Positions 1,299-27,636 of a stretch of 36,491 bases of DNA are shown one piece after another. Under the pieces are notes generated by a model that saw nothing but the letters and a program-made list of their open reading frames with translations, was not told the DNA's origin and made no database searches. Numbering within the stretch: position 1 is the stretch's first letter; every line of letters starts with the position of its first letter. Both the position numbers and the translations under genes were made by a program. Source of the stretch: a virus; the IMG/VR virus record IMGVR_UViG_3300020186_000054, positions 1 to 36,491 of that record; one strand, 5' to 3'.

Positions 1299-1301
1299 TT
1301 G

Positions 1302-3153: not shown

Positions 3154-3279
3154 TTCGTTGCCAGTAAATACACACGTGCGCACGGGATGGCAACATCTTT
3201 TTTTCGTGTCCGCCGATTTTTTTCATTGACCATGCGTGTGTATGGATTTACATCCTGAACCGTGATCAGAACGCGCACC
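3154..3279. promoter_or_regulatory. Divergent control region between recombination and replication operons
   Basis: 126 bp between genes transcribed left and right, with T-runs (3199-3204, 3217-3223). An 8-bp inverted repeat (atacacac at 3168-3175, gtgtgtat at 3236-3243) brackets the centre and could be a pair of operator half-sites. TTGACC at 3226-3231 resembles a rightward -35, but the -10 is poor. Presence of promoters is inferred from gene layout. Confidence 0.4.
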
Positions 3280-4498: not shown

Positions 4499-4504
4499 AT
4501 TGAG

Positions 4505-5386: not shown

Positions 5387-5391
5387 CCCCA

Positions 5392-6702: not shown

Positions 6703-6896
6703 AAAAAAACCTGGCCAATTATACCTTCACCAAATGCGCCAAAACCGCCGCATCCCTCCCGTCGATCACATATGCCGAACTGGAACGCGCATGGAAGAGC
6801 GCCAAATATCGAGCGTCCAATCAGAAAACCGCACCCGTGATCATTTGGATGGATGTCGTCAACGCAATGGAAAGTTCATCACCGCCGAAGCCATGA
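6699..6896 (+). CDS. Hypothetical protein, 65 aa
   Basis: Starts at ATG 6699 overlapping the helicase stop (ATGA) and ends by ATGA overlap with the following gene, which is the best evidence that it is translated. Basic N-terminus (MKKNLANYTFTKCAK), a Tyr/Ala/Lys helix and a Pro-Lys-Pro end. No family recognised. Confidence 0.5.
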   Translation: MKKNLANYTFTKCAKTAASLPSITYAELERAWKSAKYRASNQKTAPVIIWMDVVNAMESSSPPKP

Positions 6897-7177
6897 GCAC
6901 GACAGACCCTAAACGAGCGTTATCTGCATCCGATTTGTTGGGCATATTGCTCATATTACGGGAAATCCAAGAGATCGCCGAATGGATGCCCACCGGAGGA
7001 ATCGGCAGCGAGGGTGCCACAATGGAGGAATTGAGCCAAGCATCCGAAGAAGGGCACCCATACGATAATGACATGGATTACGACGTGGTACAACGCATAT
7101 GGCGACTTGCGGAAAGCGCAATCAATCTGATGCCTAACGATGAAACTCACGACTGCGAACCGGAGACATCCAAATGA
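6893..7177 (+). CDS. Hypothetical acidic protein, 94 aa
   Basis: ATG 6893 overlaps the previous stop; the frame is open further upstream but there lies within the helicase gene. A hydrophobic helix (ASDLLGILLILREIQEIAEW) is followed by a Gly-rich turn and a strongly acidic stretch (EEGHPYDNDMDYDVV). Overlaps the next gene by ATGA. Not recognised; acidic, DNA-mimic-like composition is noted without claiming function. Confidence 0.55.
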   Translation: MSTTDPKRALSASDLLGILLILREIQEIAEWMPTGGIGSEGATMEELSQASEEGHPYDNDMDYDVVQRIWRLAESAINLMPNDETHDCEPETSK

Positions 7178-7413
7178 CTGGCGAGGATCCGAAGCCGATG
7201 GTCGCTTGCCCCTTCTGCGGGAAGACGATTGCCAGCGAGAACCAGTGGGGGCGACTCTCTATAGATGTCGAAGACGCTGAGGCGGTCGCTGAACACTTCT
7301 TCAAGGCGATCTCCAATGATGCGCGGAAGCCACTCGAAGCTGAAATCATCCGACTAAAGGCGCTCTTATTCGATTTGCAGAACGCGGGCAGCGACGGCGC
7401 AAATGTCGAATAA
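7174..7413 (+). CDS. Small zinc-finger-type protein, 79 aa
   Basis: ATG 7174 overlaps the preceding stop. One CPFCGK knuckle near residue 13 looks like half of a Lar-type zinc ribbon; no second Cys pair is present, so zinc binding may be lost or dimeric. The rest is helical. Its C-terminus contains QNAGSDG, encoded by GCAGAAC at 7377-7383, the same core as the cassette boundary at 8995. It overlaps the next gene by 11 nt. Confidence 0.55.
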   Translation: MTGEDPKPMVACPFCGKTIASENQWGRLSIDVEDAEAVAEHFFKAISNDARKPLEAEIIRLKALLFDLQNAGSDGANVE

Positions 7414-7898: not shown

Positions 7899-8432
7899 AT
7901 GAGCATCAAAGACATCAAGAAGCAGGCAGAAGAAATGAGTGAATCGGAAGGCATCGAAAACACCCGCGACCTCGCGAGAATGATCGTGAAACTGTGCGAG
8001 GAACTGCACGCCATGAAGCCCATGAAAGACAAATACGGAACCGAGTGCTCTCGGTGCCATAAGTTCGCGCCATTGAGTCGGCTGACGGCACAACGTGAAG
8101 GTCTTGTTTGTGTGGATTGTTTAGATTCCGAGCTTGGTCCGTGCAGCTCATGGGGACTTCGGCCGCATCCCCACAACCAAAAAACGAAAGAACCTCTGGA
8201 GCGGGCCAGGGATGGAGCGACCGCCGATTGGCAACCGATAGAGACTGCTCCTGAAAACGTAACCGTGATGCTCTACTGTCCGCATCGACACTTCGCGAAC
8301 GTCGAGCGAATTGAAATTGGTATGGCTAGATCTGGCAGGTATTTCGCTCACGGAAAGCCCGCGAACGGAACATGGTCTCATCATGCTTGGGCAACGCATT
8401 GGGCAACGCTGCCGCCACCGCCGAACGCATAG
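7899..8432 (+). CDS. DUF551-domain protein with zinc ribbon
   Basis: 177 aa. Residues 1-45 are helical and acidic. CSRCHKF and CVDC (residues 50-75) form a probable zinc ribbon. The C-terminal part starts WQPIETAPENVTVML and ends HAWATHWATLPPPP, the signature opening and closing of phage DUF551 domains (function unknown). The ORF ends ..PPNA*, where the last codons are the first half-site of the attC-like repeat at 8420. AC-rich DNA precedes the start; no clear ribosome-binding site. Confidence 0.7.
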   Translation: MSIKDIKKQAEEMSESEGIENTRDLARMIVKLCEELHAMKPMKDKYGTECSRCHKFAPLSRLTAQREGLVCVDCLDSELGPCSSWGLRPHPHNQKTKEPLERARDGATADWQPIETAPENVTVMLYCPHRHFANVERIEIGMARSGRYFAHGKPANGTWSHHAWATHWATLPPPPNA

Positions 8433-8517
8433 CTATGCCAGCCCGAGGGCGAAAAAAGACCATGAATACAGAAACAACATCGCCGCCCTTGGGATTGGCA
8501 GCAGCGTCTTGTTCTGC
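8420..8517 (+). repeat. attC-like site 1 (integron-type recombination site)
   Basis: 98 bp. Outer cores GCCGAAC (8420-8426) and GTTCTGC (8511-8517) pair 6 of 7. An inner box TGCCA-GCCC..GGGCG pairs with CGCCC..GGGATTGGCA, leaving one unpaired extra base on one arm. Unpaired spacers of about 8 and 9 nt separate outer and inner boxes. This is the R box / spacer / L box with extrahelical base plan of attC. Consensus GTTRRRY is followed at GTT but not at the fourth position. Confidence 0.6.
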
Positions 8518-9034
8518 TTTGGGCGTGGTGCTCGATGCGTGCTGCGGATCGCGCATGATGTGGCTGGACAAGCAAGACGCCCGAGTGACGTTCCAAGACC
8601 GCCGGAACGAAAGCTACGAGATCAAACCAGATCGCGCCTACCCAAGCGGGACAACGATCCATGTCCGCCCCGATGTGGTGGCCGACTTCACTTCGATGCC
8701 CTTTCCAACCGATTCGTTCTGGCATGTGGTGTTCGATCCTCCGCACATCATCCGCAACGCGGAACTCGGCAAGATAACGAAGGCATACGGGTGCCTGAAC
8801 GGCGACTGGAAAGCAATGCTTGCGGGCGGCTTCCGCGAATGCTTCCGGGTGCTCAAGCCAAATGGAACGCTCATCTTCAAATGGTGCGAAACGCAAATTC
8901 CTCTCCGCGAAATTCTCGCGCTCACTCCTGAGAAACCACTTTACGGGCACAAGGGCGGACAAAAGTCCGTCACTCATTGGGTGGCATTCTTGAAGCAGAA
9001 CGCAAAGATCAGCGGCGATACGCCGCGCCAATAA
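8435..9034 (+). CDS. SAM-dependent DNA methyltransferase (phage adenine-type)
   Basis: 199 aa from ATG 8435; ATG 8462 is an alternative. The recognisable enzyme starts at VVLDACCGS (SAM-binding motif I) about residue 30. DVVADFTSMPFP and VVFDPPHI follow; DPPH is a DPPY-like catalytic motif of amino-methyltransferases. GFRECFRVLKPNGTLIFKW and THWVAFLK complete a family common in phages and annotated as class I methyltransferase. The first about 30 residues are encoded by attC-like site 1, so the cassette itself brings no ATG and borrows the start from the upstream site (stop-CT-ATG). It probably modifies phage DNA against restriction. Confidence 0.75.
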   Translation: MPARGRKKTMNTETTSPPLGLAAASCSALGVVLDACCGSRMMWLDKQDARVTFQDRRNESYEIKPDRAYPSGTTIHVRPDVVADFTSMPFPTDSFWHVVFDPPHIIRNAELGKITKAYGCLNGDWKAMLAGGFRECFRVLKPNGTLIFKWCETQIPLREILALTPEKPLYGHKGGQKSVTHWVAFLKQNAKISGDTPRQ

Positions 9035-9095: not shown

Positions 9096-9237
9096 GAATG
9101 ACGTAAAACTCACGGCGGCACAAATAGCCTTCTGGAGGCGTGCCTTCCCGGAACTGCTGATGACTGATGAGATGGTGCAAACACTGAGAGACAATCTGCA
9201 ACGTCGGATCGGGAGTGGAGATTCGCCGAACGCATAG
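9037..9237 (+). CDS. Hypothetical protein in attC-bounded cassette, 66 aa
   Basis: Starts at ATG 9037, 2 nt after the methyltransferase stop (TAActATG), inside attC-like site 2. The cassette-specific part begins near residue 20 (ANDVKLTAAQIAFWRRAFPELLMTDEM), a short helical domain. It ends GDSPNA, encoded by the first core of site 3. No family recognised. Cassette length about 224 bp. Confidence 0.5.
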   Translation: MENKTDDQRGESFAASPGSANDVKLTAAQIAFWRRAFPELLMTDEMVQTLRDNLQRRIGSGDSPNA

Positions 9238-9319
9238 CTATGCCAGCCCTGCCCGCCAGCGACGTTGCTTTCTCACCGGCTCTCACCGGGCAGGGATTGG
9301 CATCAGCGCCTTGTTCGGC
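9225..9319 (+). repeat. attC-like site 3
   Basis: 95 bp. Cores GCCGAAC (9225-9231) and GTTCGGC (9313-9319) pair 7 of 7. Inner boxes ATGCCA-G-CCCTGCCCG and CGGGCAGGG-AT-TGGCAT pair fully apart from one extra base. Its first 26 bp (9224-9249) are identical to 8419-8444 of site 1. This is the clearest attC-like fold in the window. Confidence 0.65.
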
Positions 9320-9644
9320 AATTCGCGTGGTGGAGACTGGCCATGTGTTCCGGGGTGTAAAACCTTGCCCGTATTGTGGCGGCAAACTGTCCTTCTCGAC
9401 GAGCGAATGGCAGCAGGAAGACGACGGCTCCTGGGTAGCGACCGAAGTGCAGATCGAATGCTCGAATGAGCCGGACATCGACAGCGATGAATGGTGGGAG
9501 TGGAGCCACAATCACGGGGATCAGGACTACAACGATGCGTGGTATAGCCTGACCGGGCGAGTGCTACGGGAGTTGCGAACGCGGGTGCGCTTCATTTGTC
9601 GGGCGAACGCCGCCAGTCAGCAACAAGGGGAAGCAAACCGATGA
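9240..9644 (+). CDS. Lar-type zinc-ribbon protein in attC-bounded cassette
   Basis: 134 aa from ATG 9240, placed 2 nt after the previous stop (TAGctATG) and inside site 3, so about 27 N-terminal residues are attC-encoded. The likely native part begins VKPCPYCGGKLSFS; the CPYCGG knuckle with a later lone Cys resembles Lar (restriction-alleviation) type small phage zinc proteins. The middle is very acidic and Trp-rich (SDEWWEWSHNHGDQDYNDAW). It ends CRANAASQQQGEANR across the first half of site 4. A role in restriction alleviation is only a suggestion from the ribbon and the neighbouring methyltransferases. Confidence 0.55.
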   Translation: MPALPASDVAFSPALTGQGLASAPCSAIRVVETGHVFRGVKPCPYCGGKLSFSTSEWQQEDDGSWVATEVQIECSNEPDIDSDEWWEWSHNHGDQDYNDAWYSLTGRVLRELRTRVRFICRANAASQQQGEANR

Positions 9645-9694
9645 CAATCTCAAGCGACGATCTCCCCGAAGTTTGCTGCAATGGCTTGTTAGAT
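9602..9694 (+). repeat. attC-like site 4
   Basis: 93 bp. Cores GGCGAAC (9602-9608) and GTTAGAT (9688-9694); the latter is a perfect GTTRRRY integron core. Inner boxes CAGCAA..GGGGA and TCCCC..TTTGCTG pair with a small internal loop. Outer cores pair only 4 of 7, as expected if GTTAGAT belongs to the next cassette, whose end core is ATCTAAC (10684). Confidence 0.6.
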
Positions 9695-10735
9695 TCTGGA
9701 TGGGCTCGTGACCAAACGAGCGAAGCGAGCACTAATTGCCTTCGTCATCTTGACCTATTCTCGGGCATCGGGGGCTTCGCGCTGGCTGCACGCATGGTCG
9801 GAGGAATCGAAACGGTGGCTTTCTGCGAGCGTGAGAAATACGCGCAACGAGTGCTGAAAAAACATTGGCCGGATGTGCCAATCTGCGACGACATCCACAA
9901 AATGAAAGGAAACGAATATGGAACAATTAACCTTATTACAGGGGGATTCCCTTGCCAACCTTACAGCGTCGCCGGGAAGCGAAGAGGCAACGAAGATGAC
10001 CGTGCGCTCTGGCCGCAAATGCTGCGAGTCATACAAGAGGCAGGGCCCGCTTGGATCATTGGTGAGAATGTGCCTGGCATCATCACGATGGCACTCGATG
10101 GCGTGCTTGCTGACTTGGAAAATGAAGGATACGACTGCGAAACGCTCGCTATACCAGCTTGCGGCGTCGGCGCCAGTCACCGCAGAGAACGAATTTGGAT
10201 TGTGGGGCACTCCGCGCTGCGCGGATGGGATGGCGCATCCGCTCAGAGATCCGCAGAACATCGCGGGCAAAGGGAGATCAAGGCTGGAGGATCAAGTTGC
10301 ACTCTGGCCAACTCCCAGAGCTGGCAAGACCTCGGGAGAGAATGCCGAGACATGGCAGAAGCGAGCCGACGCGGGGAGTGTGGCAACGCCGCCGCTCGCG
10401 CTGGCGGTCAAGATGTATCCGACGCCAACGGTGCAGGGCGCGGAGAACGACGCCGGCCCCAGCCAATTCAAGCGGAATACGCCGCCGCTCAACGCCGCTG
10501 TGCATGGAGATCAGAAGCAGACTGGTTCGCTGAATCCGGCGTGGGTCGAGTGGCTCATGGGATACCCAAGCGGGTGGACCGACTTAGAGGACTCGGAAAC
10601 GCCATCGTCCCGCAAGTCGCAGCCGAAATCATCCGCTGTATCGTCGCAATCGAAAACGGAGCGGTAGCTCCAGCCCCTCCGGAATCTAACGCCGCCTTCA
10701 GCGATGGCGAGCCAAAGACTTTAGACAACCACTAA
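9641..10735 (+). CDS. dcm: DNA (cytosine-5) methyltransferase in attC-bounded cassette
   Basis: 364 aa from ATG 9641 (overlaps previous stop, ATGA). The enzyme proper starts at LRHLDLFSGIGGFALA (motif I, about residue 30). GGFPCQPYS holds the catalytic Cys (motif IV), GENVPG is motif VI, GASHRRERIWIV is motif VIII, and RLRGLGNAIVPQVAAEI near the C-terminus is motif X. All key motifs are present, so it should be active, methylating C5 of cytosine on phage or host DNA to evade restriction. The first 18 residues are attC-encoded. A second same-strand frame stays open across 9918-10667. It ends ESNAAFSDGEPK over the first half of site 5. Confidence 0.88.
   Translation: MTISSDDLPEVCCNGLLDSGWARDQTSEASTNCLRHLDLFSGIGGFALAARMVGGIETVAFCEREKYAQRVLKKHWPDVPICDDIHKMKGNEYGTINLITGGFPCQPYSVAGKRRGNEDDRALWPQMLRVIQEAGPAWIIGENVPGIITMALDGVLADLENEGYDCETLAIPACGVGASHRRERIWIVGHSALRGWDGASAQRSAEHRGQREIKAGGSSCTLANSQSWQDLGRECRDMAEASRRGECGNAAARAGGQDVSDANGAGRGERRRPQPIQAEYAAAQRRCAWRSEADWFAESGVGRVAHGIPKRVDRLRGLGNAIVPQVAAEIIRCIVAIENGAVAPAPPESNAAFSDGEPKTLDNH
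9918..10667 (+). CDS. Second reading frame inside dcm, conserved-looking (possible overprinted gene)
   Basis: A 249-codon frame, ATG 9918 to TAG 10667, wholly inside dcm on the same strand. Its translation has patterns I recall from separate phage proteins: TASPGSEEATKMTV near the start, FGLWGTPRCADG, ALWPTPRAG, MYPTPTVQG and NPAWVEWLMGYPSGWTDLED. These may be a widely annotated shadow of dcm, since they arise from codons of motifs VIII and X read in another frame, or a real overprinted protein. No separate ribosome-binding site stands out. Dcm itself has all its motifs and is the safer call. Confidence 0.25.
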   Translation: MEQLTLLQGDSLANLTASPGSEEATKMTVRSGRKCCESYKRQGPLGSLVRMCLASSRWHSMACLLTWKMKDTTAKRSLYQLAASAPVTAENEFGLWGTPRCADGMAHPLRDPQNIAGKGRSRLEDQVALWPTPRAGKTSGENAETWQKRADAGSVATPPLALAVKMYPTPTVQGAENDAGPSQFKRNTPPLNAAVHGDQKQTGSLNPAWVEWLMGYPSGWTDLEDSETPSSRKSQPKSSAVSSQSKTER

Positions 10736-11102: not shown

Positions 11103-11907
11103 ATGAAAAAGACAGGTCCCAAGAACCGAGGATCCCACCCTGACGGGCTGCCACTCGCAAGGAGCGGCCTCTACATTTCTTGCGCTTACCCGCCAGTAAA
11201 TTCCCTCAAATCAGCCACTCGGTCAAGCGGCTTTTCTGACCCGCTCTTTCCGTAGTACCGGGAATTAATCCCAAATCACCCCCCACCCGGCCCCATCAAA
11301 ATCGGGAAAACATCCCCTCACTCACCATTCAAACGTCACCATCACCCCGTAGAAAATCGGGAAAAATATGGTCCGCTCACAAGGAATCATCCCAGCTTTA
11401 TACCCAAAACAGGGCACTTCGCACTGTCGATGGGGATCGAATCTATATATAAGGGGCGCCCATGGGGCAAGGGTGGGGGTGGGGTCCGGGCTCGATATAG
11501 GCCCCGATCGGCCCATTCCCTGCTTCTCTATCCCGTTGTCGTTCAATTACTTGTGACTTCATTATACATGAACCTTATTGTGCCACCTTATGCCTTTGAC
11601 CCTTCGATACAGCTCCCGCTCACCCCACCCTGGGACGGGGTCGATGCGTGATTTTTACGCCCTTCGAGTAAATACGGAATTAGCGTAACAAGTCGCTACC
11701 TGGTCGCTAGGTCCCCGTCCATTGATCGGCTCACCTGGGTCCGCTACGCCCCGTCATGATCGAGCGGCTGGACGGTTGATCGAGCCTATTGAGTACGGCC
11801 CTTACCTGATATGATCGGACCGGGTTAGAGACTCTCTCGTCTATCGATAGAGAGAGTGTGCTATCGTGAGGGGACCCGCTTCCGCGTCTCCGTCTACGCT
11901 GGACGTG
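11103..11907. other. 805-bp region with no convincing gene
   Basis: No ORF with credible start or composition on either strand. Holds aaaatcgggaaaa twice (about 11299 and 11350), a C/G-rich stretch 11455-11520, TATAAT on the minus strand near 11560, several tgatcg-type words at 11730-11820 and a hairpin at 11831. A minus-strand frame ends at about 11197 in RVADLREFTGG but lacks a start and may be a gene remnant. No tRNA fold was recognised. Confidence 0.5.
11831..11857. repeat. Inverted repeat around CTATCGATAG
   Basis: Arms ACTCTCTC (11831-11838) and GAGAGAGT (11850-11857) flank an 11-nt centre that contains most of the 10-bp palindrome CTATCGATAG (11841-11850). It lies in non-coding DNA downstream of the leftward operon. 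Could be an operator, a recombination site or a simple hairpin. Confidence 0.5.
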
Positions 11908-12589: not shown

Positions 12590-12624
12590 GGCCCGGAGTA
12601 TCGGATGCGTAAGCGGGTTAGGCA

Positions 12625-12666
12625 AGGATTATTTTCGGACTATTTTTCGGACTGTTTTTCGGGCCT
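12625..12666. repeat. T-rich repeat (ttttcggact units), left copy
   Basis: Aggattattttcgg, actatttttcgg, actgtttttcgggcct: three related 12-13-nt units. A two-unit version lies at 16185-16213 in the same orientation. The two copies bracket the block of small plus-strand genes. Confidence 0.65.
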
Positions 12667-12768
12667 GATTGCGGGATAAATGCGCCATTTAATCCGTCGT
12701 TGTGGGAATTATTTCACGTCGTAAAATGTTGATATCCAGCCGATTAAAACTTTGTTAAAAATACTTGA

Positions 12769-12790
12769 TTGACACGAAACCGGTTTCGTG
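12769..12790 (+). promoter_or_regulatory. LacI/GalR-type operator overlapping a -35 box
   Basis: CACGAAACCGGTTTCGTG at 12773-12790 is a perfect 18-bp palindrome with the central GAAACCGGTTTC typical of LacI/GalR-family operators. It overlaps TTGACA (12769-12774), a consensus -35. The expected -10 about 17 bp on (GAGTCT) is poor, so promoter position is uncertain. A bound repressor would control the rightward small-gene block. Confidence 0.6.
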
Positions 12791-12803
12791 AGAGTCTTTG
12801 GGC

Positions 12804-12983
12804 ATGAAAACCACCGCAGTCACCAACGCAGTCACCAACGCAGTCACAATCACCCCCGCCGGAAAGACGGCCGAGCGTAGGTCTCTGCGGAAAGCGCTGC
12901 TCGCAGCAACGACAAGCACCAAGCGTTGCTGGCAGCATCCCGTCTCACAAACACAATTCTGGGCCGCGGCAATCACTGAATGA
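12804..12983 (+). CDS. Doubtful small ORF downstream of operator, 59 aa
   Basis: ATG 12804 follows the operator by 13 nt. Residues 5-16 come from three 12-bp tandem units (12816-12851; AVTNAVTNAVTI), and residues 25-35 (RRSLRKALLAA) from the 30-bp dispersed repeat also found at 7460. The rest is unremarkable. It could be a short leader peptide or just transcribed leader DNA; coding is uncertain. Confidence 0.3.
   Translation: MKTTAVTNAVTNAVTITPAGKTAERRSLRKALLAATTSTKRCWQHPVSQTQFWAAAITE
12876..12905 (+). repeat. 30-bp dispersed repeat, copy 2
   Basis: 29 of 30 bases equal 7460-7489. It is followed by an imperfect inverted repeat (CAGCAACG and CGTTGCTG) at about 12905-12940 that is absent at copy 1. 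Confidence 0.75.
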
Positions 12984-13013
12984 CACCCCCAAACCCCAAA
13001 CCCCAAGCCCAAC

Positions 13014-13304
13014 ATGAACACACTCACCTACCCCTACCCCGTCACTCCGCTGGCATGCGCTCCCCGGAAAGGGAGCCGCGTCGGCATCGTGTGGTACATC
13101 CGACTCGCGTCGGGTGAGTACATGCGCCCGAGCTACGGCGGCGCCAACTTTTGCCCGCGCGTAGGGGCGAAAAAAGAAGCGTGGCTTTATTGCGCCACTC
13201 CGGCGGAGTCCGCCTTGCTCATGTCATCTATTGAGGCGTGGGCATCGCAGGTCGATGGAGAAATCCACGGAGAAGAATACGAATGGTATCCAGGCTGGTT
13301 CTGA
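13014..13304 (+). CDS. Hypothetical protein, 96 aa (small-gene block)
   Basis: ATG 13014 after an A/C-rich leader. Aromatic-rich and mixed (VGIVWYIRLASGEYMRPSYG, later GEEYEWYPGWF), with a beta-strand look, so a small globular protein. No family recognised. First solid gene of a run of ten in the same direction. Confidence 0.6.
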   Translation: MNTLTYPYPVTPLACAPRKGSRVGIVWYIRLASGEYMRPSYGGANFCPRVGAKKEAWLYCATPAESALLMSSIEAWASQVDGEIHGEEYEWYPGWF

Positions 13305-13356
13305 CCCCAAACCCCAACCCAACCCAAACCAACAAACAAACAAAGGAACTACGAAA
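13305..13356 (+). promoter_or_regulatory. A/C-only leader with ribosome-binding site
   Basis: 13305-13344 contains only A and C. It is followed by aaggaactacgaaaATG, where AAGGA can pair with 16S rRNA. The end caaaggaactacgaaa is identical at 15084-15099, upstream of another gene in the block. Confidence 0.6.
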
Positions 13357-13560
13357 ATGATCACATTGAAATTCGACAACGGCGAAGCGGGCAGCGACTA
13401 CGGGTTCTTCTACACGATCCAAAACGGAGAGCAGGAAACGATCGGACCATCAGCCCCGACGCAAGAAGAGTGGGAAAAACTCAACTACTCAGAGGAGGAC
13501 GCGATCAAGGAACTCCTCGCAAGTGGGTTCGAGCGGTCAGAAATCGAAATTCGGGGATAG
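13357..13560 (+). CDS. Hypothetical acidic protein, 67 aa
   Basis: Start at ATG 13357 set by the AAGGA 11 nt upstream; the open frame extends further but within the previous gene. MITLKFDNGEAGSDYGFFYT then Glu-rich (EEWEKLNYSEEDAIKELLASGF). A compact acidic alpha/beta protein; composition resembles phage inhibitors of host proteins, but that is only an analogy. Confidence 0.65.
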   Translation: MITLKFDNGEAGSDYGFFYTIQNGEQETIGPSAPTQEEWEKLNYSEEDAIKELLASGFERSEIEIRG

Positions 13561-13595
13561 AACCCAACCCAACCCAACCCAACCAACCAAACACA
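13561..13595 (+). promoter_or_regulatory. A/C-only leader, (CCCAA)n; G-quadruplex potential on minus strand
   Basis: Four consecutive CCC runs spaced by AA, then accaaccaaacaca and ATG. The complementary strand is (GGGTT)n with four G-triplets, sufficient for an intramolecular quadruplex. Related leaders precede the genes at 13014, 13357, 13877, 14173, 14502, 15100 and 15454. Confidence 0.6.
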
Positions 13596-13847
13596 ATGAA
13601 AATGCAAACCGCTCAGCCCAAAGTCAAAACCGAAAACAACCAGACCTATATCATCTGGGGGCTGCGCCGCTACTGGATCGACGACCTTAATAGCGCGACC
13701 GTCTCCTGTGTCGAATCGGCCTGCGCGGAAGTCGGCGAAACCGACGACCTCGAAATGCTTTTCGAGACAATCGACGAAAAAGTAGATGCCACTCCGGGCG
13801 CAAGGGCCGTCTATATGGACAAGCGCAGGTGGGAGGACGCGGAATAA
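13596..13847 (+). CDS. Hypothetical acidic protein, 83 aa
   Basis: ATG 13596 directly after a pure A/C leader. QTYIIWGLRRYWIDDLNSAT, then acidic helices (SACAEVGETDDLEMLFETID) and a YMDKRRWEDAE end. No family recognised. Confidence 0.6.
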   Translation: MKMQTAQPKVKTENNQTYIIWGLRRYWIDDLNSATVSCVESACAEVGETDDLEMLFETIDEKVDATPGARAVYMDKRRWEDAE

Positions 13848-13876
13848 ACGGCATCCAACCCCAACCCAACCCAACC

Positions 13877-14176
13877 ATGACAACGACAACGACAACGGCA
13901 TTGCAAGACGCAGTATCCTACTCCGCGGCAAAATTGTCGCGCGCACACAAAATCTTCGATCCGTGGCAAGTCGCCGAATCTTCGCACAAAGCGAACGTCC
14001 CGGCAATCGAAGCCCTCGCCGAACTGAGGATCCTCATGCGCGTCGCGTCGCACTTGGGCGAGACGGCAGTGGTGGACAAAATCGAAACGGCGTTGCGCCC
14101 CGGTCGAGTAAAAGCTACCGAAACATACCCAGAAAACAAATGGGTCTCCACCCCCAACCCAACCCAACCAAAATGA
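13877..14176 (+). CDS. Hypothetical helical protein, 99 aa
   Basis: ATG 13877 after an A/C leader; begins MTTTTTTALQDAVSYSAAKL. Mostly helical (IEALAELRILMRVASHLGE). Its last codons read through the next gene's A/C leader (TPNPTQPK) and the stop overlaps that gene's ATG, so the leader is here translated. Confidence 0.55.
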   Translation: MTTTTTTALQDAVSYSAAKLSRAHKIFDPWQVAESSHKANVPAIEALAELRILMRVASHLGETAVVDKIETALRPGRVKATETYPENKWVSTPNPTQPK

Positions 14177-14472
14177 AAAAACTGCCTAAAACTCGAATCA
14201 TACAGGTGCAGGGCGCTGAAGTGTATTTCACGCGCCACACCGAAGCGGATGGATCATACTTTTGGGAAGAGTATCGCAAAGACAAGTCCGCCCTCCTCCC
14301 ATACCGGGACGCAAAATTCCGGTCCATGGGTTACGGGCGACGCGGCCCGGCGCCAATGATCGGCGAGGCGTCGAGGGGAATCCCGGAGGATTTCGCAACC
14401 AGCCTCCTGTCTCCCTTCGCCCGGCTGGCATATGCACCGGGCCACAAACCCGCCACGCCGATTCGCTTCTGA
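14173..14472 (+). CDS. Hypothetical basic protein, 99 aa
   Basis: ATG 14173 by ATGA overlap. MKKLPKTRIIQVQGAEVYFT suggests a beta-rich N-terminal half; the second half is Arg/Gly/Pro-rich (MGYGRRGPAPMIGEASRG). Not recognised. Confidence 0.55.
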   Translation: MKKLPKTRIIQVQGAEVYFTRHTEADGSYFWEEYRKDKSALLPYRDAKFRSMGYGRRGPAPMIGEASRGIPEDFATSLLSPFARLAYAPGHKPATPIRF

Positions 14473-14501
14473 CCCCAACCCCAACCAAACAAAGGAACAC
14501 A

Positions 14502-14927
14502 ATGAAAATGAAAACCTATAAAACGCTGGAATTCCGCTTTTCGGAAAGCCGGGGTCGAGGCACGTGGGGCTACAATATCTGCTCGCTGTACGTAGACGGC
14601 CGCAAGGTGTCATCATGCAAGGGAGGCGGCTACGACATGCAGGGCGAGAGCCTGGGCGACTGGGTTGCGCGTGAGTATGCGGACCGGTTGTTGCGGCTGA
14701 AGGATGGCGGCTTCTACGGCCTAACATTCCACGGCAATTCCGCCAGCTCGAAATTTCCGACGCGACTGCATCGGCGCCCGCTGATACACGGAGCCTGCGG
14801 ACTGGAAAGCGTGCGGAGGATCATGCAGGCCATCAAACTTGAAATGGAATACATCACAAAATCATCGAACGCTACCATCTATCGTCTCCACGACCGGCGG
14901 CGGACCAGGGCGAAAGGAACAAAATGA
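14502..14927 (+). CDS. Hypothetical protein, 141 aa
   Basis: ATG 14502 with AAAGGA upstream in an A/C leader. Largest of the block. Beta-rich start (YKTLEFRFSESRGRGTWGYN), then GGGYDMQGESLGDWVAREYAD; it contains LTFHGN and ends basic (DRRRTRAKGTK). The YDMQG..LG..VA..Y order is reminiscent of small phage proteins of unknown function. Overlaps the next mini-gene by ATGA. Confidence 0.6.
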   Translation: MKMKTYKTLEFRFSESRGRGTWGYNICSLYVDGRKVSSCKGGGYDMQGESLGDWVAREYADRLLRLKDGGFYGLTFHGNSASSKFPTRLHRRPLIHGACGLESVRRIMQAIKLEMEYITKSSNATIYRLHDRRRTRAKGTK

Positions 14928-15061
14928 CATGGCAAAAAATGTTCATGGCCTGCGGAATCGTCATTATGATCGGCGGTATAAACGTCATAATGATCAACAT
15001 ACCCGTTGGCCTGGGAGTGATAGGAGTAGGCTATATTGTCGGCTGGTTCGGCAATGATTGA
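14924..15061 (+). CDS. Small membrane protein, 45 aa
   Basis: ATG 14924 overlaps the previous stop. Almost entirely hydrophobic: MFMACGIVIMIGGINVIMIN then VGLGVIGVGYIVGWF, enough for two short transmembrane helices with a turn at INIPVG. Role unknown (envelope interference or superinfection exclusion are possibilities). Confidence 0.6.
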   Translation: MTWQKMFMACGIVIMIGGINVIMINIPVGLGVIGVGYIVGWFGND

Positions 15062-15099
15062 CAACAACAACAAACCAAACAAACAAAGGAACTACGAAA

Positions 15100-15426
15100 A
15101 TGAAATCCATAGACTACCGCAACCTGATCGCCGCGCTCGCCGAAATCCACGAGCCATCCATTGATGAGGAAATTCGCCCACGCGATCTTGCCGGAGAACC
15201 GGCTGAACTTACGCTCCGATTCGGCATCGAATATGGGGACGACGAGGGAGAAGGAGAACTCAGGGACATCTCTAGAGCCCTCGCTCAATTCGGGGTCGAT
15301 GAGGCGGATTGGACCGGCTGCGGTGGCGGCTGTGCAATGGACGCAACTGCCACGGTCATCATCGACGATGCAACCTACGAGCCCTGTGGGTTTGGGCTGG
15401 AAAAACTCAAGTTGGCCGCGGATTGA
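15100..15426 (+). CDS. Hypothetical acidic protein, 108 aa
   Basis: ATG 15100 with the same aaggaactacgaaa leader as 13357. Very acidic middle (YGDDEGEGELRDISRAL), a CGGGC element, and DATYEPCGFGLEKLKLAAD at the end. Probably a small folded alpha/beta protein; no family recognised. Confidence 0.6.
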   Translation: MKSIDYRNLIAALAEIHEPSIDEEIRPRDLAGEPAELTLRFGIEYGDDEGEGELRDISRALAQFGVDEADWTGCGGGCAMDATATVIIDDATYEPCGFGLEKLKLAAD

Positions 15427-15453
15427 CAACAACAAACCAAACAAGCAAACAAA

Positions 15454-15759
15454 ATGAAAGAACTCAATAAAGCTAGTCTCGCATACGCGCTATATGCCGC
15501 TTTGATCGACGAGGACGACGACGGAGGGCTGACACCGTGCAATCCGGCGATATCAGCGGATGGAAATGGATCGTGCTACTACGGGAGCAGCCTCCACAAC
15601 TCGAGTGATGACCTGATCATCATGCAGCTACGGGAGGGCCTGGGCGGATACTCCGGGGTAGGGGAGCAGGATGCGCATGCCGTGTCGGCGGAATGGGCCG
15701 CAGAAATCTGGGCTGAGTGCAACCGGGAGTGGATGGATTGGAAAAGAGGAGCAAAATGA
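15454..15759 (+). CDS. Hypothetical acidic protein, 101 aa
   Basis: ATG 15454 after an A/C leader. Helical start (ASLAYALYAALIDEDDDGGL), three Cys, and an acidic Trp-rich end (EWAAEIWAECNREWMDWK). Overlaps the next gene by ATGA. Not recognised. Confidence 0.6.
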   Translation: MKELNKASLAYALYAALIDEDDDGGLTPCNPAISADGNGSCYYGSSLHNSSDDLIIMQLREGLGGYSGVGEQDAHAVSAEWAAEIWAECNREWMDWKRGAK

Positions 15760-15977
15760 AAATTTACATCACGTCAGAAGCAACCGCGTTTGCCTACCTC
15801 CGATCTCTCGAGCCATCGACCGAGATCGAACTCCCGGGAGCCTATGAGGCGAAGCCGCACGGCGCCGTTGCCGATGCCGTCTCCGTCATCACTGGCGAAC
15901 CCCCCAACGCATGGGCTACCTCCATGAATCGCTGGGAGTGGACTGCCGGGGAAATAATCGCGGCACTGGACCGCTGA
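15756..15977 (+). CDS. Hypothetical protein, 73 aa, last of small-gene block
   Basis: ATG 15756 preceded by GAGGAG (15747-15752), the strongest ribosome-binding site of the block, within the previous gene. MKIYITSEATAFAYLRSLEP..; a small alpha/beta protein. Followed 16 nt later by a strong terminator, which closes the operon. Confidence 0.6.
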   Translation: MKIYITSEATAFAYLRSLEPSTEIELPGAYEAKPHGAVADAVSVITGEPPNAWATSMNRWEWTAGEIIAALDR

Positions 15978-15993
15978 ACCCAACCCGCAACCC

Positions 15994-16029
15994 CCAAAGC
16001 CCCGAGCGCAACCCGCTTGGGGCTTTTGG
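15994..16029 (+). terminator. Strong rho-independent terminator after small-gene block
   Basis: CCAAAGCCCCGAGCG, 5-nt loop, CGCTTGGGGCTTTTGG: a near-perfect 15-bp stem whose 3' side ends in a T-run. The A-run on the other arm would also allow some termination of leftward transcripts. Confidence 0.8.
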
Positions 16030-16184
16030 CGTGTGGTCATCCGGCTTCCGTGCGCCTCGCTACGGGGTTTTCCGGACGCGAGTGGGACGTGGATGCCCGG
16101 GGCCAGTGCCGGGTTCTGCTAGGACCCGCCAATCAGGCCCTCGTTCAGGCGGTCCGCCCGCCCGCAAATGCCAGCGCTTACGCT

Positions 16185-16213
16185 AGGATTATTTTCGACT
16201 ATTTTTCGGGCCT
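16185..16213. repeat. T-rich repeat, right copy
   Basis: Aggattattttcg, actatttttcgggcct: same as 12625-12666 minus one internal unit and one G. Lies immediately before the palindrome and the 22-bp array. Confidence 0.65.
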
Positions 16214-16233
16214 TGGAATCGCCGATTCCGCCC

Positions 16234-16383
16234 GCTCCCGGAAAAGCGTTTAGCCACTCCCGGAAAAGCGTTTAGCCGCTCCCAGAAAAGCCGGGAATCG
16301 CTGGGGAATTTGGCGATTCCGTCCACTCCCGGAAAAGCGTTCAGCCACTTCCAGAAAAGCGTTTAGCCGCTCCCGGAAAAGCG
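16234..16383. repeat. Phased 22-bp direct-repeat array
   Basis: Units of the form RCTYCCRGAAAAGCGTTTAGCC at 16234-16255, 16256-16277, 16278-16292 (truncated), 16325-16346, 16347-16368 and 16369-16383 (truncated). Head-to-tail phasing is exactly 22 bp, about two helical turns, so a bound protein would lie on one face of the DNA. The interruption 16293-16324 holds ggaatcg/cgattcc words. Candidate origin, partition or packaging/regulatory locus. Confidence 0.7.
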
Positions 16384-17069
16384 AATATCCGGATTCTTTG
16401 AACCATTACAAGGCGGGCCGATTTAACTTTTTTCGATTCCCGATCACTTTTTGCTTGCGCCAAGGCGGGCGGTTGTGGATGTTTCGCCCATCCAACCGGA
16501 TTAAACTGTCGGAAAAGAGCGAGTGGATATAATTTTTGACCACCCACTTGGGGAGTACCGCGAGGCTCCTAACCTTCTCTTTTAAGGCGTTTACAAGTGG
16601 GCGGTCTCTTCTTCTAGGGGATCTTCTGCGGGACAACCGGGCGGTTCGACAACCCGGTTCGCGGCGTCACAGCGACCGGACAGCAAAGAGTGCATCGGAA
16701 CGCGGCAAAACTCGACGGGCAACGATTACGAGGGTATCGACCCGGCAAAGTCCACAAGGACGAGCGTCATGCCGCCCGCAAATGCAAATGGTCGCCATGA
16801 GACTGTGATTCCCCAAACCGGGGATAGGACGACCAGGGGAATGACAACATGACCGAGGTTCCCCTAGAGCAAGGCGGGCGGGCAACTGGATGAAAGTCCG
16901 GTCCCAAACTGCCAAAATTGCCGCCAAACCGCTCTCACTCCGATTTCAGCGATCCTCTCACCCGAGAACCGCAAGATCCCTCCTGCCATTAAGAAGTCGG
17001 GGAAAGAATCATGGGAATCGAGAGTTCAAAAGAGAGAAAACCACAAAAAAGTCCCGCGTTTGGGCTGAT

Positions 17070-20000
17070 TTAATCCCGTCTCAACCGAGGCTCATATTCC
17101 CGCTGAATTTCCTTGAGACGGCGTTTATATCGTTCCGACGCCTCGCGCTTGGTGTCATTTGCCCTGGTTGACCCGGTAATATTCCGAAGTTCCCGTGTGG
17201 CCTGAGTTTGCTGTTCCCGGCGTTCAAACAAAAGATTTCGTTCGACTGTGCGCGGATTGATTTGTGCGATTCGGACACCGACGAGAGAAAGAGCGGCCCT
17301 GCCTGGGGTATATTGCCTGCCCGTGCGAGTGTCTTCGATGCCGCGACCGCCCTGATTATTGCGCGAGAACGATTTAATTAGTTCCTGGGAGCCATATCCA
17401 CCTGCCAACGGGGGCGCCATGTTGCGAATGACGGTCTGGGCGGCGCCTTTCGCGTTTGGTTCGATGGGTTGACCGGAGAACAATTGTCGCCCCGCCATGA
17501 GCTCAGCGACTACGTTCAAGAGAGGCGTACTTCTCATACCGCCGACTGGATTATCTCCAATAATGGCGTCTAGATCCCGGTTCCAAAGATTGCGCAGTGT
17601 CTTGGTGTAGTCGCCGACGATGTTGAACGGGTCCGCGTTGATGAAATCGAATTTACCGGTCTTTTTGTTGCGCGAGAATGGAATGCGAAGTTGGGAACGC
17701 TCCATGGGACTGGACTGTCGGATCATCCGATCCCAATCCTTTTTGTCATCATCGGAAAGCATGGATGATTCCACGATTTTCTTAATGGCAAGAGGCGTGG
17801 TGACGAGCCCGGTAAGAATGGCCGCGCTGGTCATGCGCTCTTTGACGCTGAGAAGCGGGTTGCCAACATCTTCGGCCAGGTTCTTCATCACGCGAAACAT
17901 CTGATAATTATAAGTGATAAATGGATTGACGAACGGGAGTTTGCTGGCGATTTGGATTCCCTTTGGTGATGTGCCGTAGTTATGGGTGTAACGATCAGTA
18001 AATCGGAGTGCCTGAGACTCGTTCATGCCGCGAAGGCGGGAATTACGATAAGTGACGTATCGGACGAATGAATCGGGTTGGCGATAGATTTTTTTTGCGA
18101 AGTCATCCGCCGCCTTGAAAGTTGCCAGCGCCTTTTTTACAGGTCGAACGCGACCGGAAATCTGATCGGCGACACTTTCGATAAATTCATGATCAACCTG
18201 GGTTGCGCCAAAGACGCCCAATCGATCCGCTTCATCGAAATACCCGGTTTTACTGCGCAAATCCTTGAGTGCAGCATGCCATTCGACCGGGTTGAAATTT
18301 CGTGCGGCGAGAAGAAACAAAGGGATGGTCGCGTAATTGCGGGAGACTGTTGCCGGGTTCCTGAGCGTGACATTCTGCTTCACCTGACTATTGATAAAGC
18401 CGATGCCGGAATCCCGAATAACTCGTTCAAACGCGGAATTGATGGGAACGACCACACCGATTCCACGGGCGACTTCTTGATGAACCCACTTATCAGCCAA
18501 AGGTCCAAAGGACAGGTTGTCATCCAACTTAACGAACCGTTGCAAGACGGCCTTTTCCGCGTCGGTGGCGGCGTCAAGGTAGGCCGGAAAATTAATGGCA
18601 CTCAATGCTGCCGGGACATTGTCCAAATGCAACTCATCGAACATCTTTAATGCCTTGGAATTGGCCGCACTGGTGATAATTTTTGCGCCCGTGCGAGCTG
18701 CAATTTCGACCGGGTTTAGACGCTCCCCATAAAGGCGGCGGCGCGCATCGGTCATTACCTTTGCGTCGGCAATTTCCTTTTGCTTGGTCGTGGCGATTTC
18801 CAATGTGTTCTCGGCATTACGAAGGGCGGTCCTGGTCTCTTTGGTGTTCGCGTTTTTATTTGCTTTTTTTGCCTGATCCAAATCGGAGTTCATTCCATCG
18901 ATTTCCGTGGCAATCTGTCTCAACTTCATCCCCTTTTCGTCAGGGGTGAGCATCCGATGCTCATAAATAGATGATTTGATGGTCGTCTTACCACCTGAAT
19001 CCGAACCGAACCGCTCTTCATTCCGAAGCTCGGAAAGATGCTGGCGGAGATCCATGGCAGCGGCTTCACGACTGCCGCCAAACTCCCCGACAAGCTCGCT
19101 CACAGTATCCTCGAACGCCTGCGGATCGCGCTTCCATTCCCTGCCATTGACAAAGATGTCATACTGTCGCGCCCGGTAAATTCCCTTGGTATTCTGGATT
19201 GCCTTGCGTCGAACGGGGTCGGACTCGCCTTGCAATAGAGCATCTTGTAACTGACCGATTGCGTAATCAGATTTGCGCTCCGCATCCTTGTAAGCCTGGG
19301 GAATATCGGGATGCGCGAAAAACTCATCATCACTGATTATTCCGTTGACGCGCTGACGGCCGATTTCCTGCTGTCGATCCGTTAATTTAGATGCCCATCC
19401 TGACGCTCCTTCGTAGGCGCGTTGGATCAGTTTATTGTAATAACCAAGATCGCCCTGTCGTCGGGTCAAAACTTCCTGAACGGCGGGATGAAACGCACTA
19501 AAATTCTCCGTGATCATGCGCGTGCCGCGAGCGACGAACCCAGCATCAGGCGCGTGTGTTGATCCATGAGCGGCCTGAGAAATCTTGCCGGTTGGCATTT
19601 TGGTCAACGGCCCTTCAAAGAACGCCTCGTTCGGGTCCATCTTGCCCGTGGCAACCGCATGTTCATGCTCGGCCTTGAACCTGCCAACGCCGTCCCCGGA
19701 ATCATCTGCGCGCTTGTAATCTTCCTTGGCGACCAATCCCCGCACGCCGTTCCAGATATTCTCGATGTGCGCTTTGATGGACGGTCCAAACTCGCGAATC
19801 ATATTTGATGACCATTGCGTGAATTGAACGCCCTTCTGATAGATCGTGCGCCCGAAATCCACGGCGCCCCTGAATACGTCGGCATCAATGAATGCGGCCT
19901 CGCCCTTGGCTTCGATCTTATCTTTGAGAGGTTTGAGTCGAACCGGGTCTGTGATGGGGGGTTCGGGAGCAACTGGTTGACCATTCGCATCAACCTTCGG

Positions 20001-21002
20001 TGCGCTTGCCTCGACAATCGGATGATTTTGATCCGGGGAAATGCCGGGGGCGACGATCTCAGGATCGGGTTTAGGTAACGGCGTGACGGCACTCTCGGAA
20101 ATTGGGGGCGTCTCAACTGCCGGAATCGGGGCGGTTGGCGTCTCGACTGACGGGACTGTGGGGGGCGGTTCCACGATGTTCTCCGTAGCGTTTCGCGGAT
20201 AGAATACGCGTTGACCATCTCGTTGAAGCGGAGATGGTCGGTCCATTCCTGGCTCTACGTTGATGTATGGCTCGTGCAAGTCTTGTCGCGGATAGAACAC
20301 GCGCCCATCTTGTTGAATCGGGGGTGATTGATCCATCCCCGGGTCTACGGCCCTCGACATGCGTTCGCGGGGATACCTCGCCCATGCAGAGAAAATCGTG
20401 TCGGTGGCAAGTTGAGTCATGCCCTCCCGGGTCATCACATCGTGCCCGTCAAGCGCCTGTGAGCCCGCTGACAGGGCGGCTCCCCCCAGAGCGCGCCCCG
20501 CCAACGGAAGCCCTTGTAGCGCTCCAAACGCCGCGAAAGTTGGTACGGACCATGGATTACCGGTTTGCGCCTGCTGGAATGCTCCAGCGGCCACGTTCCC
20601 GGCTAGGTCAGCTACGCGAACGCCAGCTCCCAAACCGGTCGCCATCTTGGCTGCGCCCACATACGGTATGGCAAGCGCGGCGACCTGCGGGGCAACGTCG
20701 CCAACTACGAAGTCAACGACTTTCCCGGGAACGGATTGAGCGCGTTCGAGATCCGGGAACACGTTGGTTCCGGCCCAGTCAATCGGTTCATAGCCGTCGC
20801 TGGACCCCGTTTGGCCCATGTAATCCAGCCGATCAAGTGCATCGACGTAGCCTTGAAACACTCGACCCGGGATCTGCGCAGTTCGCTGAAATGCTCGGGG
20901 AATAAACCCCGTTTCCTCGGGCGGTTGAGGTGGTTGCGACGCCAACGAATACTCACTGAGAAGTGAGTCGAAGATTGATTGTGCTTCCTCGTTGAGAGCC
21001 AT
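17070..21002 (-). CDS. Very large internal virion / ejection-type protein (1310 aa)
   Basis: Last gene of the late operon. Near residues 95-190 there are Ala/Gly/Val-rich hydrophobic stretches (VAALAIPYVGAAKMATGLG), possible membrane-active segments. Residues about 218-275 carry a tandem repeat (PGMD.SP..Q.DG..VFYPR, two copies), then a Pro/Thr/Val-rich linker to about 350. The remainder is helical and charged, with a basic C-terminus (RYKRRLKEIQREYEPRLRRD). Size, position after tail genes and composition fit podovirus ejection/internal proteins injected with DNA. No catalytic motif recognised; a 'large polyvalent' type protein is an alternative. Confidence 0.6.
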   Translation of the reverse strand: MALNEEAQSIFDSLLSEYSLASQPPQPPEETGFIPRAFQRTAQIPGRVFQGYVDALDRLDYMGQTGSSDGYEPIDWAGTNVFPDLERAQSVPGKVVDFVVGDVAPQVAALAIPYVGAAKMATGLGAGVRVADLAGNVAAGAFQQAQTGNPWSVPTFAAFGALQGLPLAGRALGGAALSAGSQALDGHDVMTREGMTQLATDTIFSAWARYPRERMSRAVDPGMDQSPPIQQDGRVFYPRQDLHEPYINVEPGMDRPSPLQRDGQRVFYPRNATENIVEPPPTVPSVETPTAPIPAVETPPISESAVTPLPKPDPEIVAPGISPDQNHPIVEASAPKVDANGQPVAPEPPITDPVRLKPLKDKIEAKGEAAFIDADVFRGAVDFGRTIYQKGVQFTQWSSNMIREFGPSIKAHIENIWNGVRGLVAKEDYKRADDSGDGVGRFKAEHEHAVATGKMDPNEAFFEGPLTKMPTGKISQAAHGSTHAPDAGFVARGTRMITENFSAFHPAVQEVLTRRQGDLGYYNKLIQRAYEGASGWASKLTDRQQEIGRQRVNGIISDDEFFAHPDIPQAYKDAERKSDYAIGQLQDALLQGESDPVRRKAIQNTKGIYRARQYDIFVNGREWKRDPQAFEDTVSELVGEFGGSREAAAMDLRQHLSELRNEERFGSDSGGKTTIKSSIYEHRMLTPDEKGMKLRQIATEIDGMNSDLDQAKKANKNANTKETRTALRNAENTLEIATTKQKEIADAKVMTDARRRLYGERLNPVEIAARTGAKIITSAANSKALKMFDELHLDNVPAALSAINFPAYLDAATDAEKAVLQRFVKLDDNLSFGPLADKWVHQEVARGIGVVVPINSAFERVIRDSGIGFINSQVKQNVTLRNPATVSRNYATIPLFLLAARNFNPVEWHAALKDLRSKTGYFDEADRLGVFGATQVDHEFIESVADQISGRVRPVKKALATFKAADDFAKKIYRQPDSFVRYVTYRNSRLRGMNESQALRFTDRYTHNYGTSPKGIQIASKLPFVNPFITYNYQMFRVMKNLAEDVGNPLLSVKERMTSAAILTGLVTTPLAIKKIVESSMLSDDDKKDWDRMIRQSSPMERSQLRIPFSRNKKTGKFDFINADPFNIVGDYTKTLRNLWNRDLDAIIGDNPVGGMRSTPLLNVVAELMAGRQLFSGQPIEPNAKGAAQTVIRNMAPPLAGGYGSQELIKSFSRNNQGGRGIEDTRTGRQYTPGRAALSLVGVRIAQINPRTVERNLLFERREQQTQATRELRNITGSTRANDTKREASERYKRRLKEIQREYEPRLRRD

Positions 21003-21009
21003 GATTTCG

Positions 21010-22368
21010 TTAGTAGTCTGTTCCTAATACGTAGTTCGATGTGGCCGCTCCGACTTCCCGCAAAGCAACACCGGCCCCGAGACCTGTGCGTGTGACACCT
21101 CTTTCAAATCCAGATACAACTGCCTCGGCGTCCCCGCCAAGTGTCCGACGTTGGCTTGGCGCCTGAGTGGTTGAGCCTGCCGCCATGGCGGCTTCTGCCG
21201 CTTTTTTAAGCTCAAGATCGATCAGTTCTTTGATCATCTTTTTGCGAAACCCTGGAAATTTTGCGTCAGTGGCCAGAATTTTCGGCTCATCAGCTTTTTT
21301 TGCGATTTGCAATTGGATGTGTTCGGGAAGTTGTTGGATCATGCCGATAGATTCGGAATCCCATCGTTCCGGGATCTCAAACCCGGTTTCCTGCGCGACA
21401 AGTTGCCGAGCATAGTCAATAATTTCCAGGGGGATTTGCTTCACAATGGGTTCCCCAAGCTCGCCGTTTGGTCCCTTGTTTGGCATGACAAGAGCTTGCT
21501 TTTCTGGGTCGTAAAGTCCAATCGCATCAGCCGGTTGAATCCCACCTGTCATTTCCGAAAACCGTTTCAGCTTATTGTCCAATTGCGATTGATTGTAGGC
21601 ACGCTGATCATAATCTTCCTTGCGACGGTTTTGGTCCATGGTGGCCAGCCTCGCTCGATCTTCGATTGATATCGATGGTCCGGTCGGTAATCCAAACTGG
21701 TTCGCCATATTCACATACCGCCCTTGAGCGATTGAAGCATCGAGTGTGTTCAATTTGGTATCATTTGCGGCCCCGAACGACTTGGAATACCCAAGGTTAT
21801 AGTCTCGCATCTGCCGGACGGTCGGGACCTGATTTCCGTTCACGTCAAGATTCAAGTTCTCGATCTGTGATTGGTGACGCAAATCTTCGTCAATCGATCT
21901 GAGGTTGCTTTCCTGATAAACCTCCTGCATCTGCTGGGGACTCAAGCGGCTGAATCTCGGGTCGTTAATCAAACGCTTGTTTAACCCCGCCTGATCACGC
22001 CCCATTAATGCGCGTTCGAGTTGATTCCCAGAAGAAAACGATTCCTCGTTCTGCATTTGGTTATATTGCTGTTCCGTGAACGTGCCGTCCATGGCTTGCC
22101 CGTTTCTGAACACCTGACCGCCAGAATAGGAATACGGCCGTGATTGGGTGACTCCGTAATCCCTGACCAAACCCCTAGTAGACATTTCTTGTGCGGTGGG
22201 GGCGTTCGCCTGGATGTCAGCCTGGCGTCGGAGGTTATCTTGATACAAAAGTTGCGCCCGTTGGGCGATGGCCATATTCCATTCTTCGTCTTTCGCTCTT
22301 TGCATCTGCCAGTCATCCGGGATCATCGAATCCCCGGCCATTCTTTGAAAGTTCTGAGTGTAGTTCAT
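21010..22368 (-). CDS. Putative internal virion protein (452 aa)
   Basis: Gln/Asn/Arg-rich and helical throughout (DEEWNMAIAQRAQLLYQDNL, MQEVYQESNLRSIDEDLRHQ), with an Ala-rich C-terminus. Located between two other large non-enzymatic virion-type genes, 7 nt upstream of the 1310-aa gene. Composition and position resemble podovirus internal core/ejection proteins. No family signature recognised. Confidence 0.55.
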   Translation of the reverse strand: MNYTQNFQRMAGDSMIPDDWQMQRAKDEEWNMAIAQRAQLLYQDNLRRQADIQANAPTAQEMSTRGLVRDYGVTQSRPYSYSGGQVFRNGQAMDGTFTEQQYNQMQNEESFSSGNQLERALMGRDQAGLNKRLINDPRFSRLSPQQMQEVYQESNLRSIDEDLRHQSQIENLNLDVNGNQVPTVRQMRDYNLGYSKSFGAANDTKLNTLDASIAQGRYVNMANQFGLPTGPSISIEDRARLATMDQNRRKEDYDQRAYNQSQLDNKLKRFSEMTGGIQPADAIGLYDPEKQALVMPNKGPNGELGEPIVKQIPLEIIDYARQLVAQETGFEIPERWDSESIGMIQQLPEHIQLQIAKKADEPKILATDAKFPGFRKKMIKELIDLELKKAAEAAMAAGSTTQAPSQRRTLGGDAEAVVSGFERGVTRTGLGAGVALREVGAATSNYVLGTDY

Positions 22369-22389
22369 GGGGTGTGGTGGGTTCGTGAA

Positions 22390-23349: not shown

Positions 23350-23377
23350 GTTGATAATTGCCTTTCGTTTTATGATG

Positions 23378-24157: not shown

Positions 24158-24164
24158 GTCGTAT

Positions 24165-26339: not shown

Positions 26340-26352
26340 GAGGTATGATCGG

Positions 26353-26625: not shown

Positions 26626-26628
26626 GGG

Positions 26629-27630: not shown

Positions 27631-27636
27631 GGCGCA

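Follow-up and report, generated by a model that had tools for sequence, protein, structure and literature searches.

In an uncultured tailed phage, an operon of small accessory genes carries leaders made almost exclusively of A and C in front of most of its genes. The reading that we favor, with a probability of roughly 0.6 for its two parts combined, is that these leaders are unstructured translation-initiation spacers, and that their similarity to one another also makes them seams for the exchange of gene modules.

The phage and its accessory-gene operon

The window, by which we mean the whole stretch of DNA that was analysed, is an entire virus record of 36,491 bases and a fragment of the phage genome. 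Its products include a PD-(D/E)XK type exonuclease, a DnaB-like helicase, two DNA methyltransferases and a lysozyme, and the virion genes form one block on the minus strand. Contig G003 (loci L039 and L013) matches the window at 182–7228 (99.3%) and 31352–36275 (99.4%), with ≈12.8 kb between the two matching parts that is absent from the window. The window is therefore incomplete, and we infer that it is part of a genome of ≈49 kb. No isolate phage was similar to the window, and a DNA search of the public phage collection returned no close phage. On the minus strand, 11106–11194 matched the DUF3800-VII RNA (RF02967) at 66.8 bits, far over the gathering score.

About eleven small genes lie in a row at ≈12804–15977, eight of them preceded by A/C leaders (Table 1). 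Locus L008, on another contig, is 99.4% identical to window 16314–21451 and carries an operon with the same flanks; the longer locus on that contig, L037, is 99.6% identical across 16314–28302. Upstream, the homology between the two 5' blocks stops 12 nt past the start of the first ORF's ATG. The sequence ACGAAACCGGTTTCGT, at 12775–12790 upstream of g0, is a 16-nt perfect palindrome; it is operator-like and is broken in L008. A scan of the plus strand at 12600–16100 for sigma-70 promoters found no consensus site, and a simple scan did not return the probable terminator. The operon is bracketed by a direct repeat (12618–12650 and 16178–16210) and by 22-nt repeats of the CGTTTAGCCACTCCCGGAAAAG type, which lie at 16201–16404 in the window and on both operon sides in L008 (2262–2350 and 5462–5560).

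Homologues of g6 occur in Klebsiella, Salmonella, Listeria and other phages (43 phage records, all below 60% identity). The L008 copy (4062–4616) has ≈45 additional codons in mid-gene. As a two-gene unit, g6–g7 (14502–15061) has a positional parallel in 072/073 of Klebsiella phage Seifer.

Table 1. Features of the operon in window coordinates, with the corresponding situation in L008.
Feature	Position	Strand	Remark
Conserved 5' block, putative promoter region	12674–12815	+	92% identical to L008 2364–2505
g0, 59-aa ORF, first gene, without A/C leader	12804–12983	+	ORF a in its place in L008
g1 A/C leader	12984–13013	+	minus-strand G4 motif 12986–13010
g1, 96 aa	13014–13304	+	no family match; absent from L008
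g2 A/C leader with AAAGGA	13305–13356	+	last 24 nt as in g8 leader; minus-strand G4 13305–13325
g2, 67 aa	13357–13560	+	in L008 after g7 (4790–4996), not before g3
g3 A/C leader, (CCCAA)4, no SD	13561–13595	+	L008 homologue (CCAA)n + AAAGGA, no G4
g3, 83 aa	13596–13847	+	common to window and L008
g4 A/C leader, no SD	13848–13876	+	
g4, 99 aa	13877–14176	+	end reads through next A/C run; absent from L008
A/C run before g5, doubling as g4 C-terminus; no SD	14148–14172	+	
g5, 99 aa	14173–14472	+	absent from L008
g6 A/C leader with AAAGGA	14473–14501	+	near-identical leader precedes g3, not g6, in L008
g6, 141 aa	14502–14927	+	small phage protein, homologues distant
g7, 45 aa, membrane-like	14924–15061	+	ATGA overlap with g6
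g8 leader, CAA type + AAAGGA	15062–15099	+	same g7-leader stretch precedes g2 in L008
g8, 108 aa	15100–15426	+	absent from L008
g9 leader, CAA type, no SD	15427–15453	+	
g9, 101 aa	15454–15759	+	absent from L008
g10, 73 aa, last gene, AGGAG, without A/C leader	15756–15977	+	common to window and L008
Probable terminator AAAGCCCCGAGCGCAACCCGCTTGGGGCTTTT after g10	15997–16028	+	read by eye; identical in L008

Composition and predicted structure of the leaders

The first-pass annotation had described leaders of almost only A and C at eight sites, and this was borne out. A/C-only runs of 19–41 nt occupy 12983–13006, 13304–13344, 13561–13596, 13855–13877, 14148–14173, 14472–14493, 15061–15087 and 15426–15444. 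The region 12.7–16.1 kb contains eight such runs with a length of 14 nt or more, versus 0.1 expected per 3.4 kb under a third-order Markov model trained on the remainder of the window. The A+C fraction at −30 to −1 was 0.87–1.00 in the eight leader genes versus a mean of 0.62 in 24 others, the upstream regions of some of which overlap other genes. Overall, the leaders contain 2% T and 8% G. They stand directly 5' of the start in 8 of the 11 operon genes; the other three, g0, g7 and g10, lack such a leader.

Other details of that description required revision. A gradation into AAAGGA before the ATG, presented as general, was seen in three of the eight leaders (those of g2, g6 and g8, with starts at 13357, 14502 and 15100), and no Shine–Dalgarno match was found for g1, g3, g4, g5 or g9. 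Two leaders reported to end in the same 16 bases do end identically, but over 28 nt (13333–13360 and 15076–15103, before g2 and g8), consisting of 24 leader nucleotides plus ATGA. The proposed common regulatory signal did not emerge, as no motif is conserved among the leaders beyond their composition and the optional AAAGGA.

The suggestion that the leader RNA is unstructured agreed with predicted folding, in which the start regions have little secondary structure: mean unpaired probabilities near the eight leader-gene starts were 0.55–0.92, compared with 0.35–0.82 for other phage genes, with most but not all of the eight starts above the latter. CAA-repeat and A-rich unstructured leaders are used in translation studies. 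The leaders described here resemble the (CAA)n-type study leaders in their structure-free 5' region, but they are natural and stand at successive cistrons of one operon.

The leaders had also been placed between the small genes, which is correct for most of them; the one near 14149 is at the same time the C-terminus of the upstream ORF. This ORF (13877–14176) continues through the A/C run, ending in WVSTPNPTQPK, and its TGA at 14174–14176 overlaps the g5 ATG at 14173. ORF a of L008 likewise continues through the leader that follows it. Because A/C-only DNA contains no start codon, stop codon or Shine–Dalgarno core, a gene without a stop of its own would be expected to read through. We speculate that ORFs extending through leaders may have been truncated when recombination took place at a leader.

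Gene order and leaders in a sister phage

The window operon reads g0, g1, g2, g3, g4, g5, g6, g7, g8, g9, g10, and the L008 operon reads a, b, c, g3, d, e, g6, g7, g2, g10. Five genes are common to both, six window genes are exchanged for five others, and g2 lies before g3 in one phage and after g7 in the other. The search for A/C leaders in a related genome, proposed along with the first-pass annotation, had a positive outcome in L008: the style is kept in seven leaders despite the differing genes, and b, c, d and e, which the window lacks, have leaders of this kind.

Divergence of the shared genes between the two phages was uneven, with dN and dS of 0.12 and 0.60 for g3, 0.039 and 0.19 for g6, and 0.032 and 0.050 for g2; dS was 0.14 for g10 and 0.11 for g7. 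These dS values, spanning 0.05–0.60 beside a 12-kb flank that is 99.4–99.6% identical (a difference of about half a percent), indicate modules with separate histories, and the modules appear to have been drawn from a diverse pool. In every shared gene dN was lower than dS (ratio ≈0.2 for g3 and g6), so that at least the shared ORFs look, from their sequences, like real genes under selection.

Homology between the two operons ends inside the operon at eight places. Leaders make up 8% of the operon, and six of these ends fall inside a leader or no more than 6 nt away from one. A naive binomial test gives p = 5 × 10−5, a value to be read with the facts that the ends are not independent, that gene edges are also favored by selection and that the comparison involves two operon haplotypes. 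At the clearest joint, homology runs through g7 and the following leader to the ATGA (15103), after which the window continues with g8 and L008 with g2. The L008 leader at 4757–4793 is homologous to both the g2 and the g8 leader of the window; together with the 28 shared nucleotides, this is as expected for a crossover at the leader. The g2 leader and gene form a block (window 13325–13560, L008 4757–4996) with 95% nucleotide identity. Leaders have also changed partners. The L008 g3 leader scored 23.5 against the window g6 leader and 15.5 against the window g3 leader, with a shuffle maximum of 19; window 14475–14516, at the g6 leader, is 95% identical to L008 3228–3269; and the leader nearest to that of window g3 is the one of L008 gene c. 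The breakpoints and the leader exchange back the proposal that gene order varies by recombination between leaders.

Homologous g3 leaders vary in both the unit and the number of their repeats, (CCCAA)4 in the window and (CCAA)n in L008. This variation is what would be seen if the CCCAA, CCAA and CAA tracts were simple-sequence repeats that, by slipping, adjusted the expression of the small genes or turned it on and off. We consider such a role unlikely, as the tracts are short and mixed and lie 5' of the ATG, where slippage leaves the frame unswitched.

The four G-triplets noted on the minus strand at the g3 leader are present, as (GGGTT)4 at 13563–13580, and similar motifs lie at 12986–13010 and 13305–13325. 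Quadruplexes on this G-rich strand could in principle regulate transcription or provoke recombination, but the motif occurs at three of the eight leaders, leaving five without it, and the recombined seam after g7 is of the CAA type and G4-free. Between window and L008 it was not conserved at homologous leaders: at the two pairs flanking g3, one phage has it and the other lacks it, in opposite directions. Since the motif is not kept at homologous leaders and the g7 seam has none, we rejected a quadruplex function of the leaders, the probability of which we take to be very small.

Shuffling elsewhere in the phage

Compared with G003, the window is also mosaic at 7.2–11.5 kb, where the joints lie at other short repeats and no A/C leaders are found; such leaders are therefore not required for shuffling in this phage. 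A stretch encoding a cytosine methyltransferase (9615–10687) is missing from L039 and has AACGCCGCC at both ends, suggesting that it was lost or gained via this short direct repeat.

An attC-like imperfect palindrome (GCCGAAC...GTTCGGC) lies at 9225–9319, with a DNA fold of −25.4 kcal/mol (z −3.7). It has relatives at window ≈8420–8530 and at 1150–1244 and 1419–1521 of L039, at gene joints that differ between the sister phages; attC sites are known to occur in phages (PMC9892861). The presence of this palindrome would fit a system dedicated to the site-specific mobilisation of genes at the leaders, whether integron-like or of another type. We regard such a system as most improbable: no attC-like site, and no palindrome after each gene as in integron attC cassettes, was found in 12.7–16.1 kb, no integrase was recognised among the scanned proteins, and the leader sequences are too variable for a site-specific target. 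A common mobilisation principle had been suggested for the leaders, and what stands of it is the gene shuffling at leaders; dedicated mobilisation machinery was not found, and shuffling elsewhere proceeds without A/C leaders.

Phage recombinases tolerate short, diverged homology (PMC2327257, PMC3945230). Beside the PD-(D/E)XK nuclease, the window encodes a phrog_3657 protein (1601–2773), which gave a structure model with a core pLDDT of about 90; no fold in the PDB matched it at E ≤ 0.001. Our guess, from overlapping annotations (two mycobacterial prophage records), is that it is a single-strand annealing protein. No homologue of the nuclease was found in 25 other loci that contain relatives of the phrog_3657 protein.

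Leaders beyond the sister phages

An exact (CCCAA)3 leader pattern was found in three viral contigs; in L005, the one of them that was inspected, the repeat lies within an apparent coding region. The pattern AACCAAACAAAGGAA followed by ATG returned only single, unrelated leaders, and near-identical leaders of this type occur one at a time in unrelated phages and bacteria. We rejected the idea that the leader is widespread across phages or throughout the host, as the scans returned nothing beyond these contigs and single leaders. Searches with g2, g3 and g9 by tblastn against the public phage collection gave no match. In a distant phage, L009, the homologue of g6 stands without an A/C leader, which shows that such leaders do not belong to the gene family as such.

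A/C bias is also seen at other genes of the window, with fractions of 0.83 upstream of 33127–34092 (a major head protein candidate) and 0.83, 0.93 and 0.90 upstream of the genes starting at 34641, 35129 and 7899. Together with the single AACCAAACAAAGGAA leaders in unrelated genomes, this indicates that convergence contributes to the likeness. The leaders could thus be open-RNA initiation spacers and nothing else, with the shuffling as ordinary mosaicism and the resemblance as convergence, an account to which we give a lesser but real chance. In addition to the bias at other true intergenic leaders and the near-identical leaders in unrelated phages and bacteria, it has in its favor the other seams used at 7.2–11.5 kb and the expectation that breaks within genes are lost, leaving breakpoints in leaders. 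It is contradicted by the 28-nt identity of the g2 and g8 leaders, by the dual homology of L008 4757–4793 and by a leader exchange that exceeds shuffle maxima.

Comparison with known systems

The promoter early stem-loops (PeSLs) of T4-type phages are mobile regulatory cassettes (Arbiol 2010; Comeau 2014; described in PMC4503421). Like PeSLs, the A/C leaders recur in the intergenic spaces of small accessory genes and lie at joints of module shuffling, as seen at six of eight breakpoints between two haplotypes. A PeSL, however, comprises a promoter and a terminator-type stem-loop, whereas the A/C leaders are defined by their lack of structure: no sigma-70-like promoter was found in them on the plus strand, and the plus-strand scan for a stem-loop or terminator was empty, with the leaders predicted to be open.

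The Start-Associated Sequences (SAS/ESAS) of Cluster K mycobacteriophages, a 13-bp GGGATAGGAGCCC with a proposed role in translation initiation (PMC3203893), are likewise repeated a few nucleotides 5' of the ATG in many small non-structural genes, as the leaders are in 8 of 11 operon genes. SAS, however, is a fixed motif, while the leaders share composition and not a motif; the consensus GGGATAGGAGCCC was not found 3–7 bp before the starts, in leaders with 2% T and 8% G. Because the defining features of both PeSL and SAS are lacking, we class the leaders as members of neither, but as a variant of the same general kind. The exchange of modules via short, diverged homology at their edges also recalls homeologous recombination of the Red/RecT type (PMC2327257, PMC3945230), except that low-complexity leaders would supply the homology here and the recombinase is putative.

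Discussion

Taking the leaders as both spacers and seams, the stretch would be a single early-type operon comprising some eleven small accessory genes. Each leader would act as a spacer nearly free of G and T, and hence free of structure, with no start or stop codon, and, judging from composition and predicted folding, such open spacers would allow ribosomes to load on every cistron. Because the leaders resemble one another, most gene boundaries would have 20–40 bp of sequence in common, and there homology-driven recombination by a putative phage enzyme could insert, remove or move genes and pair them with other leaders. The differences in CCCAA, CCAA and CAA units between homologous leaders are probably due to slippage. 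The shuffling pattern itself is seen between two sister phages, and exchange by leader homology is our interpretation of it.

Several points weigh against this reading. Two haplotypes of the operon were found, the 7.2–11.5 kb region is shuffled with no A/C leaders at its joints, and the recombinase candidate has no fold match. Selection against broken genes after random joining would equally leave breakpoints at gene edges, ribosome loading is putative given that five of the eight leaders have no Shine–Dalgarno sequence, and low-complexity leaders can come to resemble each other by convergence.

More tentatively, the leaders may amount to a plug-and-play standard, in which interchangeable translation leaders double as homology seams for small accessory genes. 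If so, genes could be swapped in and out and expressed immediately, with no need for a promoter, a stem-loop or a site-specific recombinase. A long-standing debate sets random joining followed by selection against homology at module edges as the origin of phage mosaicism. In this operon the module edges are recognisable by their unusual composition, and one element plausibly accounts both for the translation of a new gene and for its entry.
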